36,484 nt of DNA from the IMG/VR virus record IMGVR_UViG_3300035181_000891, positions 1 through 36,484 of that record. One strand, written 5' to 3'. A program made the position numbers and the translations under genes. The notes under the pieces are model-generated. The model ran no database searches, was not told where the DNA came from, and saw only the letters and a list, made by a program, of their open reading frames with translations. Positions 15,714 through 36,386 of this stretch are shown here, in pieces; the stretch's first letter is position 1; each line of letters begins with the position of its first letter. Source of the stretch: a virus.

Positions 15714-17147
15714 ATGCCCAATCTTACGATCTCCGATCTCCTCAAGGCGCAAACGTCGGATGACATCTTCTCCGCGCTCCTTGGGATCGCTAGCTCGCTA
15801 GGACTCCCGACCACCGCCTGGGGATCCGGCGCATGGGTGCGACTGATCATCGATGCGGCCTCAGTGAAGCTGTCGGATGCCTCTAAGGTGATCCCGGCAA
15901 TCACGAGCGGTGGCTTTCTGGACCTTGCGGCAAAAGTCACCCCGGAGGGCGGCCCAGGTTGGCTCGATCTTCTGTGCGCAGGCTACGGAGTGCCGCGCAT
16001 CGGATCGAAGTATGCGCAGACAGATCTCGTGCTCACGTGCTCGGGCGCGAGCGGGGCAACGTTTCAGCCTGGCGGGCTTCACTTTGCGAACGGAAAGAAC
16101 ACGTACACGAACACGGCGCCAGTCACTATCGTGGCGAATGGGATCGTTCTGTGTCCTGTCATCGCTGACGTTGCGGGCGCCTCGAGCACGGCGGGATCTG
16201 GCGCGATCAACGCGCTTGTTACTTCACTCGTGGGCGTAACGTGTTCCAACCCTGTGGCCGCTCTTGGCGCCGATGCCGAAAGAAACGTCGATCTCGTGAG
16301 GCGTACGAGGGCGAAGTTTCAGAGCTTGAGTGATAAGGGGCCCGGTGGCGCTTACGACTACAGCGCACGGACGATCAACGATATTGATCAGGTGCAGGTA
16401 TCGAGCGGTCCAATCACGCAGCCAGCATTGCCGGTCACACGGACGAATCAGGTTACCATCGCTGGCAAGGTCACCACGTACGTAGCAAGCGACGCGGGCG
16501 CGTACCTCACGCCCCCCAACTACACGAATCAAACGTCTCTCGCTATCGTTTCGAGTACCAACGCGAGCCCAATCGAGGTGACGATCACGGGGCACCCGTA
16601 CGCTACGGGGGACACGATCCAGATCAAGGATCACACGGTGAACACGAATGCCAATGGCTCGTGGCCCATCGTGGTGACTGGCGCCAACACGTTCACGCTC
16701 GATGGGTCTACGGGGAACGGCGTGGGCGGAGCTACTGGCTCCGCGTACCGATACAGCGATCTCGATCTGATCGACAAGAGTGTCCAGGCCAACGCACGGC
16801 CAGGTGCCGTGATCGCGGAGACGCTCTCCGCTACTCCAGCGATCCTTGCTATCGTGGGAACGATCAGGGTAACGGGCGCCATGTCCAGCCTTTCGGACAC
16901 TCAGATCACGAGCGTAGCGGATGATGCCGTGTTCGCCCTGGCGAAGAGCGTTCCGATTGGAGGTGTTGGTAGCACCACTCTCGTGGAGCTGGAAACGATC
17001 CGCGGAACCGTCTTCGCGTCTCTTGGCGGATTCGATGCGGGCTGCGTGAGCGTAGCCCTCTCCTCTCCCCTTGTGGACCTCGTAGTGCCGGCGAACGGCG
17101 TCCCAACAGTGTCGCCAGCTCCCACGTGGACGGTGGTGCGAGTATGA
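15714..17147 (+). CDS. Baseplate J-like protein with inserted domain
   Basis: A 477-residue baseplate wedge protein of the P2 gpJ / Mu gp47 type. Family features include DLAAKVTPEGGPGWLDLLCAGYGVPR near residue 65-90, a Gly/Ala-rich beta region, ERNVDLVRRTRAKFQSLSDKGPGGAYDYSAR (about 186-220) and a C-terminal domain with GGVGSTTLVELETIRG. Between residues about 278 and 345 it carries an inserted module (IVSSTNASPI to GNGVGGATGSAY) that recurs in the glycine-rich fibre gene 1.5 kb downstream. GGAGG is 9 nt before the ATG. Confidence 0.84.
   Translation: MPNLTISDLLKAQTSDDIFSALLGIASSLGLPTTAWGSGAWVRLIIDAASVKLSDASKVIPAITSGGFLDLAAKVTPEGGPGWLDLLCAGYGVPRIGSKYAQTDLVLTCSGASGATFQPGGLHFANGKNTYTNTAPVTIVANGIVLCPVIADVAGASSTAGSGAINALVTSLVGVTCSNPVAALGADAERNVDLVRRTRAKFQSLSDKGPGGAYDYSARTINDIDQVQVSSGPITQPALPVTRTNQVTIAGKVTTYVASDAGAYLTPPNYTNQTSLAIVSSTNASPIEVTITGHPYATGDTIQIKDHTVNTNANGSWPIVVTGANTFTLDGSTGNGVGGATGSAYRYSDLDLIDKSVQANARPGAVIAETLSATPAILAIVGTIRVTGAMSSLSDTQITSVADDAVFALAKSVPIGGVGSTTLVELETIRGTVFASLGGFDAGCVSVALSSPLVDLVVPANGVPTVSPAPTWTVVRV
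16545..16747 (+). repeat. Tail module copy 1 (inside baseplate J gene)
   Basis: About 203 bp encoding a beta-rich module of ~68 residues, with blocks IVSSTNASPI, ATGD, HxVNTNANG, LDGSxGNGVGGATG. Long DNA blocks are shared with 18019-18222. The pattern resembles small E1-FCCH-like modules common in phage tail proteins. Confidence 0.75.
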
Positions 17148-17988: not shown

Positions 17989-19233
17989 ATGCCCACGACG
18001 TACAGTGAAGGGTTGCCAATCGTTTCGAGCACCAACGCGAGCCCAATCGTTCTTGAGATCACGTCTCACGGATGGGCAACGGGAGACAGCCTCGACGTGG
18101 AGGGACATCTCGTCAACACGAACGCCAACGGGGCCACCACGATCACGGTGGTGGACGCGAATCACGTCTCGCTTGATGGTTCCGTGGGGAACGGCGTGGG
18201 CGGAGCTACCGGGCGCGCGTATCCATTCCCCTCAGCCGGTACGCAGCTCCCAGTGGGTAGCGATACTCCCACCATTGCCGGTCTCACTGCGCCGATGCAG
18301 TCGATGCTAGACAAGCTGCGCTTTCTATTCGGATCGCGCGGCGTGATTGCTGTCGACGTGTTCACCTCGAGCGACCCGAACCACGTGGTTCCCCCTGGCG
18401 CAGGTATCGCGATCTGCACCGGCTGGGGCGGGGGTGGTGGCGGCGGCGGCGGCGCTGTTGGCATCAACAGCGCAACAGCGAGCGCGTACGGCGGCGGCGG
18501 TGGCGGCGGCTCGATTGAGACGACGCAACAGATCCATGTCACGCCCGGAACGTCGCAGCCAATCGTCATTGGCGCAGGCGGAACGGGCGGCGCAGGGTCG
18601 AATTCCACGACCGCGAGCGACGGCGGCGACGGCGGCGACACGACATATGGATCGCTCGCCGTGTGGGCGGGCGCTGGTCGTGGTTGGGGCTCTCGGAACC
18701 AGACCGAAAACACATCGTTCGGTTTCATCTATGGCGGCGCATCGGTCAAGAACCAAGCAATCCCGAACCCGCTCACGGGCGTCGCGCGCGGACGAACAAA
18801 CCAAGCGACGCAGCCCGATCATCCGCAGCTATGGTCGCCAGGATGCGGCGGGCTTGGACTCTCGTCGTTCGGTCTCTCTACGGCGTTCACGGGTTGGGGC
18901 GGCTCGAGCTCATCGAACGGCGCGAACAACGGCGGCGTGAGCGACGTCGCCGGGATCAAGACGAACAGCCAGATCGGCGGCGGCCCTGGTGGCGGCGGCG
19001 GCGGCGGCCCTGGTGGCGTCGGCGGAAATGGCGCCTATGGCGGCCTCGGCGGCGGGCTTGGTGGTACCGCGGGCGCGAGCGGAAATCTGGGACACGCGCC
19101 GGTCACGGCGAACAGTGGCGCAGGCGGAGGCGGAGGCGGAGGCGGCGGAAACGGGACTGCGGCACCCGGCCCCGGACAACCTGGCGGCGCGGGCTCGGAT
19201 GGCTTGCTTATCGTGGTATATCTTCGATCATGA
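17989..19233 (+). CDS. Glycine-rich tail fibre/adhesin protein
   Basis: A 414-residue protein. Residues about 10-75 are the module shared with the baseplate J gene. A short helical stretch (PMQSMLDKLRFLFGSRG) follows, then about 300 residues of glycine-rich sequence with runs such as GGGGGGGGG separated by variable loops, ending GLLIVVYLRS. Poly-glycine rich tips closing with a hydrophobic strand are typical of phage fibre adhesins, where stacked poly-Gly II helices present variable receptor-binding loops. A receptor-binding role is therefore likely. The GGC-triplet runs could mutate by slippage. Confidence 0.75.
   Translation: MPTTYSEGLPIVSSTNASPIVLEITSHGWATGDSLDVEGHLVNTNANGATTITVVDANHVSLDGSVGNGVGGATGRAYPFPSAGTQLPVGSDTPTIAGLTAPMQSMLDKLRFLFGSRGVIAVDVFTSSDPNHVVPPGAGIAICTGWGGGGGGGGGAVGINSATASAYGGGGGGGSIETTQQIHVTPGTSQPIVIGAGGTGGAGSNSTTASDGGDGGDTTYGSLAVWAGAGRGWGSRNQTENTSFGFIYGGASVKNQAIPNPLTGVARGRTNQATQPDHPQLWSPGCGGLGLSSFGLSTAFTGWGGSSSSNGANNGGVSDVAGIKTNSQIGGGPGGGGGGGPGGVGGNGAYGGLGGGLGGTAGASGNLGHAPVTANSGAGGGGGGGGGNGTAAPGPGQPGGAGSDGLLIVVYLRS
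18019..18222 (+). repeat. Tail module copy 2 (N-terminus of glycine-rich fibre)
   Basis: About 204 bp matching 16545-16747, including near-identical blocks at the start (ATCGTTTCGAG, ACCAACGCGAGCCCAATCG) and near the end (GGGGAACGGCGTGGGCGG). The middle has diverged more than the edges. Confidence 0.75.
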
Positions 19234-24725: not shown

Positions 24726-25484
24726 TTATTCTTTCTCCATGTAGCCAGTGGCCAGCGTGCGCCATCCCAGGATCGACGTAGACGTCCCCCGGTACGCGCG
24801 CGATAGGTCCGCGCCCGATAGGTCCGCGGCCGATAGGTCCGCGGCCGATAGGTCCGCGTCCGAGAGGTTCGCGCCCAAGAGGTTCGCGTCCGATAGGTCC
24901 GCGTGCGATAGGTCCGCGCCCGAGAGGTTCGCGCCCGATAGGTCCGCGTCCGAGAGGTACGCGCCCCAGAGGTTCGAGCCCGAGAAGTACGCGCGCGATA
25001 GGTCCGCGCCCGAGAGGTTTGCGAGCGAGAGGTTCGCGAGCGAGAGGTACGCTCGCGAGAGGTCCGCGCCCGAGAGGTCCGCGCGCGATAGGTCCGCGCG
25101 CGATAGGTTCGCGCCCGAGAGGTCCGCGGCCGAGAGGTCCGCGCCCGATAGGTCCGCGGACGATAGGTCCGCGGCCGAGAGGCTCGCGCCCGAGAGGTTT
25201 GCGCGCGAGAGGTCCGCGGCCGAGAGGTTCGCGCGCGATAGGTCCGCGCGCGATAGGTCCGCGCGCGGAATAATATTCCGATCTGCGGCCCACGTCGCGA
25301 ACGCTCCCGTGCCAGCCAACGCCCACGCCCAATGGAGTGGAGTCCAGCTCTTTACGCGGATCCGTTTCAGGCGACGCGCATCGGCCAGATCCTGTTGAGC
25401 AGCGATCTTGTCGAACAGTGCCAGCCCGTCAGCGCACGCACCGTGCCTCACGAGACTTTTTCGCCAGATCGAAACAGAGATCAT
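24726..25484 (-). CDS. Pentapeptide-repeat protein 1 with N-terminal domain
   Basis: A 252-residue protein. Residues 1-73 form a helical N-terminal domain ([51 protein letters not shown]). Residues 74-230 are about 31 tandem A(D/N)LSx pentapeptides that would fold into a right-handed quadrilateral beta-helix. The end is [11 protein letters not shown]. Some such proteins (Qnr, MfpA) mimic DNA and bind gyrase, but others have unrelated roles. It is placed between a RecB-like nuclease and Sak4 (ATGA start overlap), so a role in DNA-topology or protection is possible but unproven. A paralogue without the N-terminal domain lies at 35799-36386. Confidence 0.82.
24793..25265. repeat. 15-bp tandem repeat array 1
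   Basis: About 31 copies of a 15-bp unit close to GCGCCCGATAGGTCC on the plus strand, varying at a few positions (CGATAGG or CGAGAGG, TCC or TTC). It encodes the pentapeptide repeats on the minus strand. Because 15 is a multiple of three, all six frames stay open, creating false long reading frames on both strands. Confidence 0.9.
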
Positions 25485-32105: not shown

Positions 32106-32252
32106 ATGAGGATAGGCTCACTCTTCTCCGGGGTCGGTGGTCTGGAGCTTGGACTTGAACGCGCGAGCGTGGGTGGCGTGGTGATCAATCGTTGGTATCG
32201 CGGTGTGCTCGCCATGCATTGGCCGCACGCGATGGAGCTTGCGGGCTTATGA
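32106..32252 (+). pseudogene. Remnant of a C5-cytosine DNA methyltransferase N-terminus
   Basis: A 48-residue frame starting MRIGSLFSGVGGLELGLERA, an unmistakable motif I of C5 methyltransferases (LFSG-GG---GLE-AG). It continues GVVINRWYRGVLAMHWPHA, matching the motif II region but lacking the usual acidic E, and then stops, so the catalytic PC motif and target domain are absent. Its TGA overlaps the primase ATG (ATGA at 32249-32252). It cannot be a working enzyme. The frame has stayed open and still couples to the primase. Confidence 0.78.
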
Positions 32253-34138
32253 CTGCGGAGGTGGCAGAGGAGAGCGATCTACTACGCGCAGCGCTCGCTT
32301 ACGCGCGTCGAGGCTGGCCCGTGGCGCCCGCTCACTCCGTGAGGCCCAACGGGCAATGCTCGTGCAACACGCGCGACTGCGAGCCAAAGAACGCGGGCAA
32401 GCACCCTCGAACGGCGCACGGTCTCACCGATGCGACCACGGACGAAAAGACGATCCGTGAGTGGTGGACGAAGTGGCCCGATGCAAACGTGTTCATTCGG
32501 ACGGGCAAGGTTGGATCGCGTCATCTCGTGGTACTCGACGTGGACCCACGTCACAACGGAGACGATGCGCTAGCGTTTCTCCTTCTCGAGCACGGCGACC
32601 TTCCGCCCACGCCCGTGGTGAAAACGGGCGGAGGCGGAACGCATCTCTTTTTTTGGAGCCGCGAGCCCATCAAGAATTCGGCGGGCGTGGTTGGGCCTGG
32701 CCTAGACGTGCGCGGAGAAGGCGGATACGTGATCGCCGCTCCATCGAATCACGTGAGCGGCGGGCTTTACGAGTGGGATGAGACCGCGCACCCAACACAG
32801 GTTCCCATCGCGGAGATCCCAGCGTGGCTCACAGCCAAAGCTGGCGTGTACCGCGCCAAGAAGGTGGCGGAGCCCGGAGATCTCGGAGCCAAGATCATCG
32901 GAGAGCGAAACGTGGCGCTGACGCAGATCGCGGGCGCAATGCGTCGCCCTGGCATCGGCGAGAAGGCGATCCTTGCCGCGCTCCGCATCGTAAATGAGGA
33001 TCGCTGTCACCCCCCCCTTGACGATTGGGAGGTGGAGAAGATCGCCCGCTCCGTCGCCCGCTATCCCGCTGGAGCGCCAGTCGTAAGCACGGAGACGAGC
33101 TCTGAAGCGTTCCCGCTCCTGAACTGGACAGATCTTCGGACGGAGCTCCCACCCACGCCGTGGGTTTGCCAGGCGATAGGCCTCGCTCCTGGAGCAGTCA
33201 CTCTCGTGGGCGGGGCTGGCTTCGGTGGGAAGACCACGAGCCTCCAGGCGCTACTCCTGGCGGTGGCGAGCGGACAGAAGCTATGGGGGGCGCTCGACGT
33301 GAAGCGCGGGCGCGCGATTCACGTAGACTTGGAGCAAGGGCGCCCTCTCACGCAGAGCAAGTACCAGCGGATCGGGCGTGAGATGGGACTGTATGAAAGC
33401 GAGTTGGATCCGATGGTGGGCGTGTGCTGCTTGCCAAGAGGCAAGCTCGACGAAGACTCGTTGGTGCGCCTGTGCGACGGCGCGTCCGTGGCGTTCATCG
33501 ACGCATTTCGCGGCGCGTTCCCCGAAGCGAAAGAGAACGATTCGGCGGTGCGCGTACACCTCGACATGATGCACCACGTGAGCGAGCGCACGGGCTGCGC
33601 CATCATCGTAATCGCTCACTCTCGCAAGCTTCGGGATGACGATGACGACGTGCGCGGGGCACTTCGCGGCAGCTCTGCGATCTTCGACGCAGCCCAAACC
33701 GTGATCATGCTCGATGGCGCGAAGGGGAAGCCCACGCGCGTAACGATGGTCAAGGAGCGCATCACCGGGAAGCTAGCGGACGCGTTCGGAATCCAATTCA
33801 CCGATGTGGAGGACTCTCGCGGTAACAGCGGGCTGCGCGTCTCTTACGTCTCGCCTCCCGATCTACAGGCCGCATACATGAACACGGAGAGCGATGTAGC
33901 TGCGAGCCTCGAGCGCATCAGCTCGATGTGCGCGCGTCTCGTGGTGCTCCTGCCCGGACCGGATAGCAACGGGATCACGTGGGCGCAGTGGAGCGGCTTC
34001 GTGAGTGCGCCCACGAAGCTACTCAACGCTGCACGAGACGTGATGCTCTCAAGCGGAGAGGTGGAGCGGCTCGGGACTGGATCGAGCGCCGTCTATCGCT
34101 TGACGGGCGTTCGTCCGCGCGAGCCCGGAGAGGATTGA
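32249..34138 (+). CDS. Prim-Pol/AAA replicative primase-helicase
   Basis: A 629-residue multidomain protein. Residues about 10-200 are a bifunctional primase/polymerase (Prim-Pol) domain, with VVLDVDP (94-100) carrying the catalytic acidic residues, preceded by TKWPDANVFIRTG and followed by VKTGGGGTHLFFW; a Cys/His set is also near the start (CSCNTRDC). Residues 232-272 resemble PriCT-type linker (ILAALRIVNEDRC, PLDDWEVEKIARSV). The ATPase domain has Walker A GGAGFGGKTT (321-330) and Walker B VAFIDAFRG (414-422), followed by AHSRK. A C-terminal winged-helix-like region ends the protein. It primes and unwinds at the phage origin. Confidence 0.87.
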   Translation: MTAEVAEESDLLRAALAYARRGWPVAPAHSVRPNGQCSCNTRDCEPKNAGKHPRTAHGLTDATTDEKTIREWWTKWPDANVFIRTGKVGSRHLVVLDVDPRHNGDDALAFLLLEHGDLPPTPVVKTGGGGTHLFFWSREPIKNSAGVVGPGLDVRGEGGYVIAAPSNHVSGGLYEWDETAHPTQVPIAEIPAWLTAKAGVYRAKKVAEPGDLGAKIIGERNVALTQIAGAMRRPGIGEKAILAALRIVNEDRCHPPLDDWEVEKIARSVARYPAGAPVVSTETSSEAFPLLNWTDLRTELPPTPWVCQAIGLAPGAVTLVGGAGFGGKTTSLQALLLAVASGQKLWGALDVKRGRAIHVDLEQGRPLTQSKYQRIGREMGLYESELDPMVGVCCLPRGKLDEDSLVRLCDGASVAFIDAFRGAFPEAKENDSAVRVHLDMMHHVSERTGCAIIVIAHSRKLRDDDDDVRGALRGSSAIFDAAQTVIMLDGAKGKPTRVTMVKERITGKLADAFGIQFTDVEDSRGNSGLRVSYVSPPDLQAAYMNTESDVAASLERISSMCARLVVLLPGPDSNGITWAQWSGFVSAPTKLLNAARDVMLSSGEVERLGTGSSAVYRLTGVRPREPGED

Positions 34139-34344
34139 GTCTGATTTTCATTTGTGGGCTCCACACGAGCACTTGCCGCGGATGATCGGACCATGGACGG
34201 GGCACGTGCGAGACGTGCGATTGGCGTGCCCACGGCATCGCCGAACGTATCACGCACAGCCTTGAGCACAAGCTGAGATTGCCACCGGAACTGCGTTGCC
34301 GCGGGCTCGACGTCCGCCGCACCCGTCAGCAGTCGATGCCATGT
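34139..34344. other. Intergenic region between convergent genes, with repeat copy
   Basis: No convincing gene. The minus strand holds a start-less stretch reading WQSQLVLKAVRDTFGDAVGT, shared in its first part with 35693-35729 (37-bp repeat). No clear terminator was seen for the primase gene on the plus strand. This is where base composition begins to differ from the phage core. Confidence 0.6.
34249..34285. repeat. 37-bp direct repeat, left copy
   Basis: Starts ATCACGCACAGCCTTGAGCA and ends GATTGCCAC. It matches 35693-35729 at 36 of 37 positions (A/G difference at position 22) in the same orientation, 1444 bp apart. Flanking sequences are unrelated. Confidence 0.85.
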
Positions 34345-34905
34345 CTATTCGTCACGCTGGAAACCGCCGATTCCGCGCGCCATCAGCCACCGCCGCGCGG
34401 TCTTCGCCTTCACGCGTCCGTCGACGATATCACCGCGAAGAGCGCACACCCGGTAGAGCGACTTGCTGTCCACGCCCGCGAGGGCCGCGAGCTCCCGCGC
34501 GCTCGCGGGGCGACCACCCTCGATGGTCTCTCGCGCATGCGCCGCGAGGAGTACGACGCCAATTGCCGTGTCGGGGTCGACCTCGCTCTCGAGGTCGCCG
34601 ATCCCGAAGGTGCCCTCTCCCGCGCGGCTGTAGAGCGCCTCGCAAACCTCCTGGATGGCGTCGTGCGCGCAGCCATGGTCGGGCCAGTCGGTCATGCGCA
34701 GGCCCGACTGAGCGTAGCCGGTGAGCAGCTGGACGGTGAATCGGAGCGCGCTTGGGCCTGCCGACTCGGCCGGACCTACCGCGAGACCGAGTGCCAATGC
34801 CAGGCGGCCCACGCGGCTCCGGACCGCGGCATCGACCTCCTCGGCAACGGATTGCGGGATGAGGTTGGTGAGGCGGACGGTGTCGGGGTCGGGGGGGCGG
34901 GCCAT
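34345..34905 (-). CDS. Hypothetical protein with C-terminal HTH-like domain
   Basis: A 186-residue protein from ATG 34905 (in-frame GTGs at 34911 and 34917 are alternatives). It starts MARPPDPDTVRLTNLIPQS, is Ala/Val-rich in the middle, and near the C-terminus shows a helix-turn-helix-like stretch (ARELAALAGVDSKSLYRVCA, then VKAKTARRWLMARGI). This suggests DNA binding. Stop TGA at 34345-34347 region; convergent to the primase gene. The upstream 115-residue gene is coupled to it through a ten-codon frame (34940-34908, ATGA overlap then a two-base gap). Family not recognised. Confidence 0.55.
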   Translation of the reverse strand: MARPPDPDTVRLTNLIPQSVAEEVDAAVRSRVGRLALALGLAVGPAESAGPSALRFTVQLLTGYAQSGLRMTDWPDHGCAHDAIQEVCEALYSRAGEGTFGIGDLESEVDPDTAIGVVLLAAHARETIEGGRPASARELAALAGVDSKSLYRVCALRGDIVDGRVKAKTARRWLMARGIGGFQRDE

Positions 34906-34936
34906 GGTCACATCCACCGCGCTGCGCCGGTCGCGC

Positions 34937-35284
34937 TCATGACGCCACCTCAAGCGAGATCGGTGACAGCTCGGGATATCCAGCTGCCCCCAGAAACGCC
35001 GCCTGCTCGCGGTCCGTGAGGCGCGCGATCCTGCAACGGTCGCCGTCTGAGGCGATGGCCGTGACCCGCACGAGGCCACGGGCGTACACGCTGCGGTTGT
35101 TGGTCTCACCGCACCACCCATGCAGGCGCGGCTCGCGGCTCTGGTTCGTGCGGCAGGGGCGGTCGCTGAGGCGCCAGCGCGTATACCCGTCCATGGTGTT
35201 GAGGACCTCGACCAGGTAGTATACCTGGCCGTCCGAGTGCTCGTAGGTGTCGCAGTCAACCCAGCGCGGCGTGGTAGTATTCAT
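34937..35284 (-). CDS. Hypothetical protein with own promoter
   Basis: A 115-residue protein starting MNTTTPRWVDCDTYEHSDGQ, with a Trp/Cys/Tyr-rich middle (VYYLVEVLNTMDGYTRWRL, GWCGETNN) and a C-terminus ending LSPISLEVAS. GGGAG lies about 10 nt before the ATG. A strong promoter-like sequence stands about 115-120 bp upstream, with a hairpin in the leader. The mix of Cys and Trp hints at a compact extracellular-type or metal-binding fold but nothing is recognised. Confidence 0.6.
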   Translation of the reverse strand: MNTTTPRWVDCDTYEHSDGQVYYLVEVLNTMDGYTRWRLSDRPCRTNQSREPRLHGWCGETNNRSVYARGLVRVTAIASDGDRCRIARLTDREQAAFLGAAGYPELSPISLEVAS

Positions 35285-35314
35285 GGTGTCGTATCTCCCG
35301 TAGAGGTTCGGCCG

Positions 35315-35344
35315 TGGCCCCGGAGATTGCTGTCTCGCGGGGCC
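35315..35344 (-). promoter_or_regulatory. Leader hairpin
   Basis: GGCCCC (35315-35320) pairs with GGGGCC (35339-35344) and, further in, GAGA pairs with TCTC, giving a two-part stem around a small loop in the 5' leader of the 34937-35284 gene. It is not followed by a T-run in the direction of transcription. Confidence 0.45.
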
Positions 35345-35375
35345 GTTTCGTGGGCGTCATCGCCTCACACCAGAC

Positions 35376-35404
35376 ATCATGGATCCGATTGTTACCAATG
35401 TCAA
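35376..35404 (-). promoter_or_regulatory. Promoter with perfect -35 and possible operator
   Basis: Minus-strand TTGACA (35404-35399), 17 nt, then CATGAT (35381-35376; four of six matches). The -35 lies inside an imperfect dyad (TTATCAC ... GTAACAA). Initiation would leave a leader of about 85 nt before the ATG at 35284. This is the strongest promoter-like sequence in the right-end segment. Confidence 0.6.
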
Positions 35405-35447
35405 GTGATAATCGTTCGCGCGCGGTTTAGGCCTTGGGGAGCCCGCA

Positions 35448-35645
35448 TTAGGCAGCGCGCACGGTCACTCGTAGGCCGGCGCTTGGGGCGACAGTCACAT
35501 CCACCGCGTAGGCCAGGAACATGTGCCACGGGCGGGTGATTGCTCCGGTGGCAGAGCAGCTCGCGGAGCTCAAGCCCGCGCGCATTCCGTACGCACTGCG
35601 CACCCGCGTACGCGCCTCGAGCTCCGCCTCGAGCCTGCCTGGCAT
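35448..35645 (-). CDS. Possible small protein, unknown
   Basis: A 65-residue frame from ATG 35645: MPGRLEAELEARTRVRSAYG then WHMFLAYAVDVTVAPSAGLR and VTVRAA. The end resembles a beta-strand-rich fragment, the start a helix. No Shine-Dalgarno; the promoter of the next gene lies just past its stop. It may be a remnant or not coding. Confidence 0.3.
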   Translation of the reverse strand: MPGRLEAELEARTRVRSAYGMRAGLSSASCSATGAITRPWHMFLAYAVDVTVAPSAGLRVTVRAA

Positions 35646-35662
35646 AGTCAGCGGAGGGCGTG

Positions 35663-35689
35663 AAAAAAGGCGATAGCGCCGGGCGCTAT
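35663..35689 (-). terminator. Intrinsic terminator (minus strand)
   Basis: Minus-strand ATAGCGCC-C-GGCGCTAT (35689-35673) forms a near-perfect palindromic hairpin, followed after CGCC by TTTTTT (35668-35663). It ends transcription from the second pentapeptide gene about 110 bp after its stop. This also argues against the overlapping 71-codon frame (35863-35648) being a gene. Confidence 0.72.
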
Positions 35690-35692
35690 TTC

Positions 35693-35729
35693 ATCACGCA
35701 CAGCCTTGAGCACGAGCTGAGATTGCCAC
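35693..35729. repeat. 37-bp direct repeat, right copy
   Basis: Same sequence as 34249-34285 with one difference. It lies just upstream (in minus-strand sense) of the terminator at 35663-35689. On the minus strand it would read WQSQLVLKAVRD. Confidence 0.85.
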
Positions 35730-35798
35730 GCCTCCCAGGCGTGTTCGCCGTTCGCCAGGAATTCGACCCACTCTGGCGTGGGGCTAGCTGTTCGTTGT

Positions 35799-36386
35799 TC
35801 ATTCTCGCTCCAAGCAGCAAGTGACCAGAGTGCGCCACCCGACGACAGCCAACGAACCCCCACGGTACGCGCCCGAGATGTCCGCGGCCGAAAGGTCCGC
35901 GCCCGATAGGTCCGAGGCCGATAGGTCCGCGCGCGAGAGGTACGCGTCCGAGAGGTCCGCGCCCGATAGGTCCGCGCGAGAGAGGTCCGCGTCCGATAGG
36001 TCCGCGCGCGAGAGGTCCGCGCGCGAGAGGTCCGCGCCCGAGAGGTTCGCGCGCGAGAGGTCCGCGCCCGAGAGGTTCGCGTCCGATAGGTACGCGCCAG
36101 AGAGGTCCGCGCCCGAGAGGTCCGCGCCCGAGAGGTTTGCGAGCGAGAGGTTCGCGCCCGATAGGTCCGCGTCCGAGAGGCTCGCGCCCGATAGGTTCGC
36201 GTCCGAGAGGTCCGCGCCCGATAGGTCCGCGCGAGAGAGGTCCGCGTCCGATAGGTCCGCGTCCGATAGGTCCGCGCGCGATAGGTCCGCGCGCGATAGG
36301 TCCGCGCCCGAGATCAGATTGCGTTTGGGGTAGGGGGTTGATCTCGGTGACGATCTGGTGTCAAACGCTCCTCTGCCAGCGCTCAT
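35799..36386 (-). CDS. Pentapeptide-repeat protein 2, lacks N-terminal domain
   Basis: A 195-residue protein consisting of a short lead (MSAGRGAFDTRSSPRSTPYP) followed by about 30 A(D/N)LSx repeats and the ending RTLVTCCLERE, which matches the end of pentapeptide protein 1 ([11 protein letters not shown]). Where protein 1 has its 73-residue helical domain and RNIIP, this one has RNLIS directly after the short lead, as if the domain was lost. The ATG overlaps the stop of an upstream minus-strand gene (ATGA). The function of the repeat helix is unknown; gyrase or DNA mimicry is one possibility. Confidence 0.75.
   Translation of the reverse strand: MSAGRGAFDTRSSPRSTPYPKRNLISGADLSRADLSRADLSDADLSDADLSRADLSGADLSDANLSGASLSDADLSGANLSLANLSGADLSGADLSGAYLSDANLSGADLSRANLSGADLSRADLSRADLSDADLSRADLSGADLSDAYLSRADLSASDLSGADLSAADISGAYRGGSLAVVGWRTLVTCCLERE
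35866..36312. repeat. 15-bp tandem repeat array 2
   Basis: About 29-30 copies of the same 15-bp unit as array 1 (for example GCGCCCGATAGGTCC). Encodes the pentapeptide repeats on the minus strand. All reading frames are open across it. Confidence 0.9.

Follow-up and report, generated by a model that had tools for sequence, protein, structure and literature searches.

How phages gain accessory genes is still called mysterious in published work (PMC4378225), and repeats at the junctions are among the few surviving traces of such gains. When the sequence of a sister phage exists, a near-intact junction pair can reveal the route of acquisition. In mycobacteriophage LRRHood (subcluster C1), genes 43 to 46, four genes on 1.35 kb, are bracketed by 29-bp direct repeats (PMC3029335). 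Sister phages carry this repeat as a single copy, and the authors of that work point to two routes, acquisition through recombination within the repeat and loss when the DNA separating the copies is deleted (PMC3029335). Here, we describe a two-gene cassette that lies between 37-bp direct repeats in another phage, compare it with such systems, and weigh how it may have arisen.

The window analyzed here is an entire IMG/VR virus record of 36,484 bp, which is classed as linear and is thus probably a fragment. Its source is a tailed phage. The structural genes are Mu-like in type, with a Mu-type portal, an S49/Mu-like protease, a DUF2586 protein, and baseplate J, and the early genes encode a PD-(D/E)XK nuclease, an AAA_24 ATPase, a DNA methylase, a DEAD-type helicase, a VRR nuclease, and a primase/ATPase. 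The cassette is found at the end of the record, past the primase/ATPase gene (positions 32192 to 34138, plus strand; a Prim-Pol domain precedes the ATPase half), where genes switch to the minus strand, so that the cassette genes and the primase/ATPase gene are convergent. Read along the minus strand, the order is the pentapeptide-repeat gene (36386 to 35799), which is the upstream neighbor of the cassette, then about 70 bp, repeat copy R, a terminator, a stretch of doubtful coding character, a promoter, a hairpin, gene A, gene B, 60 bp, repeat copy L, about 110 bp, and the end of the primase/ATPase gene. Each repeat copy thus sits just beyond the last recognized gene of a minus-strand unit.

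Some features of the surroundings also deserve mention. The array of the neighboring pentapeptide-repeat gene is encoded by tandem 15-bp units (35823 to 36310), and its nearest phage matches, in Caulobacter phages and an EBPR siphovirus, have ~72% DNA identity within the repeats. A second pentapeptide-repeat gene of similar type is located at 24726 to 25484 (minus strand), between the nuclease and AAA_24 genes. Two genes of the tail region have exact repeats in common (16557 to 16730 and 18031 to 18204; SSTNASPI and GNGVGGATG), which represent a duplicated protein segment. Searches for tRNAs and RNA families returned no match.

The two copies of the direct repeat, copy L (34249 to 34285) and copy R (35693 to 35729), are identical at 36 of 37 positions, with a longest exact run of 21 nucleotides (nt) and a start-to-start distance of 1444 bp. 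In 300 dinucleotide shuffles of the region from 34139 to 35829, exact direct repeats had a mean maximum length of 10.8 nt and never exceeded 15 nt, which rules out a chance origin of the repeat. The pair is unique in the record, as no third copy was found when up to 3 mismatches were allowed, and 27 bp of it had no exact match in viral contigs. Outside the repeat core, the best 40-nt window at an offset of 1444 is 45% identical, and a blastn comparison of the flanks returned the 37 bp as the sole match, the likeness ending at both repeat edges. A decayed tandem duplication of a 1444-bp unit was rejected because no similarity is left at that offset outside the core. The preliminary description was thus correct both in reporting a near-identical bracketing repeat, which goes far beyond chance, and in calling the sequence outside it dissimilar. 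At an offset of 1446, there is a 30-bp match (73%) that covers two TCATGAGCGC gene starts. Separately, a 15-bp exact direct repeat (CGCGGTGGATGTGAC, minus strand) occurs at 34907 to 34921, at the start of gene B, and at 35494 to 35508, in a possible 65-aa open reading frame (ORF); a repeat of equal length arose in 1 of 300 shuffles. The ORF itself (35448 to 35645, minus strand) is unsupported and has a weakly positive codon score.

Between the repeats, the minus strand carries elements that could allow the cassette to be transcribed on its own. A sigma-70-like promoter, TTGACA-17-CATGAT, was identified at 35376 to 35404 as a consensus match only, with a perfect -35 element and four of six matching positions in the -10 element; it is the single such match in the 2.6 kb scanned, where 0.4 would be expected. 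Between the promoter and gene A lies a leader hairpin (35316 to 35344), which is part of the minimum-energy fold, and the leader overall is not unusually stable (z score of -1.1). Both elements had been proposed before and are present at this level of evidence. An intrinsic terminator stem of 7 bp, followed by CGCCTTTTTT, is located directly inside copy R (35673 to 35689). Judging by its position, this terminator would stop transcripts arriving from the pentapeptide-repeat gene and so shield the cassette. A simple scan detected no terminator after gene B; the only minus-strand terminator found is the one upstream of the promoter.

Gene A (34937 to 35284, minus strand; 115 aa) and gene B (34345 to 34905, minus strand; 186 aa) both appear to be genuine genes, since codon usage, judged by the record's own, favors their frames over the other five (25 bits for gene A and 54 bits for gene B). 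The earlier description of the genes as coupled is only partly correct: the ATGA at the gene A stop opens just 10 codons, and the ATG of gene B lies 31 bp beyond that stop. Neither protein matched Pfam, PHROGs, NCBIfam, or PDB sequences, and PADLOC-DB models gave no match to either at E values up to 1. A role in phage defense or host modification, which had been suggested earlier, has no positive evidence in its favor, though a defense role of the cassette is possible.

Gene A is, by its sequence, a remote relative of a rare and nameless family of plasmid proteins. Searches of viral contigs, genome contigs, and phages gave no match, and its sole detectable relatives are on plasmids. Single matches to proteins of Limimaricola and Nitrosomonas plasmids were weak (E values of 0.04 and 0.3), but these two proteins are mutually related (9e-24), along with a third in Roseivivax. 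When a profile was built from the three plasmid proteins with gene A left out, gene A scored 19.3 bits, against 6.3 bits for the best of 2,000 shuffles, a result to be read with the fact that the profile members had been picked as gene A matches. The similarity is confined to an N-terminal stretch of these hypothetical proteins (from Nitrosomonas stercoris, Limimaricola variabilis, and Roseivivax marinus), where gene A shares YYL-E followed by P-N-E and GWCGxTN; identity is ~37 to 38% over 35 to 58 residues, and gene A lacks the C-terminal half of the plasmid proteins. A Pfam and PHROG scan of two members of the plasmid family found no significant match, and the single-sequence structural model of gene A was poor (mean pLDDT of 50). 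The cassette thereby ties a phage gene to a small, nameless plasmid protein family.

Gene B had no match in viral contigs, phages, or plasmids, and neither did its C-terminal part when compared with plasmids and phages. The earlier statement that the encoded proteins have no recognized relatives is thus too strong for gene A and holds for gene B at the sequence level. In a low-confidence model of the gene B product, only the C-terminal 70 residues are well predicted (block means of 64 to 84), and Foldseek retrieved nothing significant with this model. The top three structural matches to the winged helix-turn-helix-like region at residues 125 to 178, found by VIA-align with this low-confidence model, are the Xis protein of phage Pukovnik (4j2n) and two BldC entries (6ama and 6amk), with Z scores of 4.6 to 4.8 and root mean square deviations of 1.7 to 2.9 over 45 to 50 residues. 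In contrast to those proteins, gene B extends ~110 residues further at the N terminus, in a part of unknown fold, and it shows no match at the sequence level. If the model is correct, the match is suggestive of a DNA-binding winged helix at the C terminus. The profile and structure searches that the preliminary description had recommended therefore yielded a plasmid family for gene A and a weak match to Xis/BldC-like folds for gene B, but nothing from Pfam, PHROGs, or PADLOC.

The base composition of the cassette sets it apart from most of the record. With a G+C content of 67.9%, the segment between the repeats is the highest of 702 same-size windows (mean of 62.1% and standard deviation [SD] of 2.0), and a foreign origin would fit this enrichment. 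However, the neighboring pentapeptide gene is also G+C rich (69%), so the cassette shares its compositional break with this neighbor, and the dinucleotide signature between the repeats is ordinary, with 100 of the 702 windows deviating at least as much.

We looked for an empty site, that is, a relative with one copy of the repeat, as had been proposed, and found none in viral contigs or phages. For the early region, the nearest kin is a 12.8-kb contig (L024), with a helicase that is 65% identical, which matches the window from the nuclease through the end of the primase/ATPase gene. It is the only kin contig that reaches past the primase/ATPase homologue, and beyond that point it carries unrelated small genes and neither gene A nor gene B; no member of the gene A family and no trace of the repeat or its peptide was detected there. 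The unrelated genes at this position indicate that the region varies, yet L024 is neither an empty site nor a clean test. Two further differences were seen in this contig. Its homologue of the primase/ATPase gene (L024, 9593 to 10804) has the ATPase half alone, whereas the window gene has both Prim-Pol and ATPase parts, which indicates domain gain or loss between these kin. At the place of the second pentapeptide-repeat gene, L024 has an unrelated gene of ~59 codons (positions ~1900 to 2072), which makes this a gene replacement. Structural kin were represented by a 26-kb fragment with a capsid-region gene that is 60% identical; it matches neither the primase gene nor any part of the cassette region.

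Taken together, these observations lead us to favor, with moderate confidence, a moron-like accessory cassette that was acquired at a site with the pentapeptide-repeat gene on one side and the convergent primase/ATPase gene on the other. The proposal in the preliminary description of a moron or insertion joined by short homology is supported indirectly by the layout, the top-ranking G+C content, the absence of both genes from L024, and the LRRHood precedent, whereas the failure to find a relative with a single repeat copy counts against it. The confinement of the repeat to the two junctions, the promoter with its shielding terminator, and the plasmid relatives of gene A also speak for acquisition; the lack of a detected terminator after gene B and the ordinary dinucleotide signature speak against it. 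The follow-up analysis newly contributes the G+C peak, the terminator inside copy R, the reading frame shared by both repeat copies (discussed below), the plasmid relatives of gene A, and the winged-helix-like end of gene B.

The most serious competing explanation, which we consider unlikely though worth keeping in view, is that the 37 bp are a piece of coding sequence. One minus-strand frame gives WQSQLVLKAVRD in both copies, it scores best by codon usage among all six frames of the repeat (4.7 and 4.0), and the sole difference between the copies (CTT versus CTC) is synonymous in it. The ORF through copy R (35648 to 35863, minus strand), whose start overlaps the pentapeptide-repeat gene, is a weak candidate for the remnant of an interrupted small gene, and the ORF through copy L (34093 to 34269, minus strand) is in the same repeat frame, so that a continuous frame runs through both outer flanks once the intervening segment is omitted. 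A small gene that followed the pentapeptide-repeat gene and whose product contained EWVEFLANGEHAWEAWQSQLVLKAVRD could have been split or partly copied, leaving one piece beyond genes A and B; an internal rearrangement of the phage would be enough, and no mobile cassette would be needed. Against this, an open frame of such length is expected by chance ~18% of the time, the frame has no clean start, its flanks have little coding signal, and no relatives of a hypothetical small protein spanning the repeat were found in phages or viral contigs. A repeat that is merely a coding segment of a longer gene had been named earlier as an outcome that would undermine the insertion, and the evidence is divided in the same way: one coding-like frame is open in both copies and no related protein was found. 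For the favored insertion, the shared frame hints, weakly, that the 37 bp derive from a small gene downstream of the pentapeptide-repeat gene and that the cassette entered this gene.

Alternatively, the repeat might be a functional site used twice, such as an operator, an RNA-end element, or a recombination site, placed at the 3' end of each minus-strand unit. The copies do lie at similar distances past the last stop of each unit (~70 and 60 bp), and the modeled end of gene B resembles a DNA-binding protein, but there are just two copies in the record, the stretches around the two copies are no more stably folded than shuffled sequences and have no Rfam match, and no integrase-like gene was recognized among the larger ORFs scanned; we regard this as improbable. 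Less probable by far is an assembly artifact in which two molecules were joined at a shared 21-mer. A linear-class contig that is probably a fragment, with a longest exact run of just that length, might invite such an explanation, but a one-base difference distinguishes the copies, which are separated by 1.4 kb on a single contig with a consistent gene layout. We give hardly any weight to a non-autonomous cassette in which the Xis-like gene B protein would bind the 37-bp ends and steer excision or insertion, with a recombinase supplied from elsewhere and gene A as cargo.

Under the favored explanation of an acquired accessory cassette, entry would have occurred by recombination that left, or used, the 37-bp homology. 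Such entry would place one repeat copy at each junction, so that deletion by recombination between the copies could also occur; the two routes named for LRRHood may thus both be open to this cassette. With its own promoter and the upstream terminator, the cassette would be expressed independently of neighboring transcripts. The gene B product, judging from its model, may be a small DNA-binding regulator with an Xis/BldC-like winged helix, and the gene A product could be its partner, of unknown activity.

How does this cassette compare with known systems? It shares with phage morons (PMC4378225, PMC3029335) a promoter of its own (here a consensus match only), a nearby terminator, a base composition unlike that of its neighbors, and accessory genes; it differs in that the terminator lies upstream of the promoter rather than after gene B and in that there are two genes rather than one. 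With LRRHood it shares ~1.4 kb of extra genes between short direct repeats at both junctions (29 bp in LRRHood and 37 bp here). The LRRHood segment encodes a phage repressor, and gene B may likewise encode a DNA-binding regulator. The empty site is known from sister phages for LRRHood and was not found here, and the likeness is one of layout. By this analogy, the cassette is most likely of a type already seen in other phages, an LRRHood-like insertion bounded by direct repeats.
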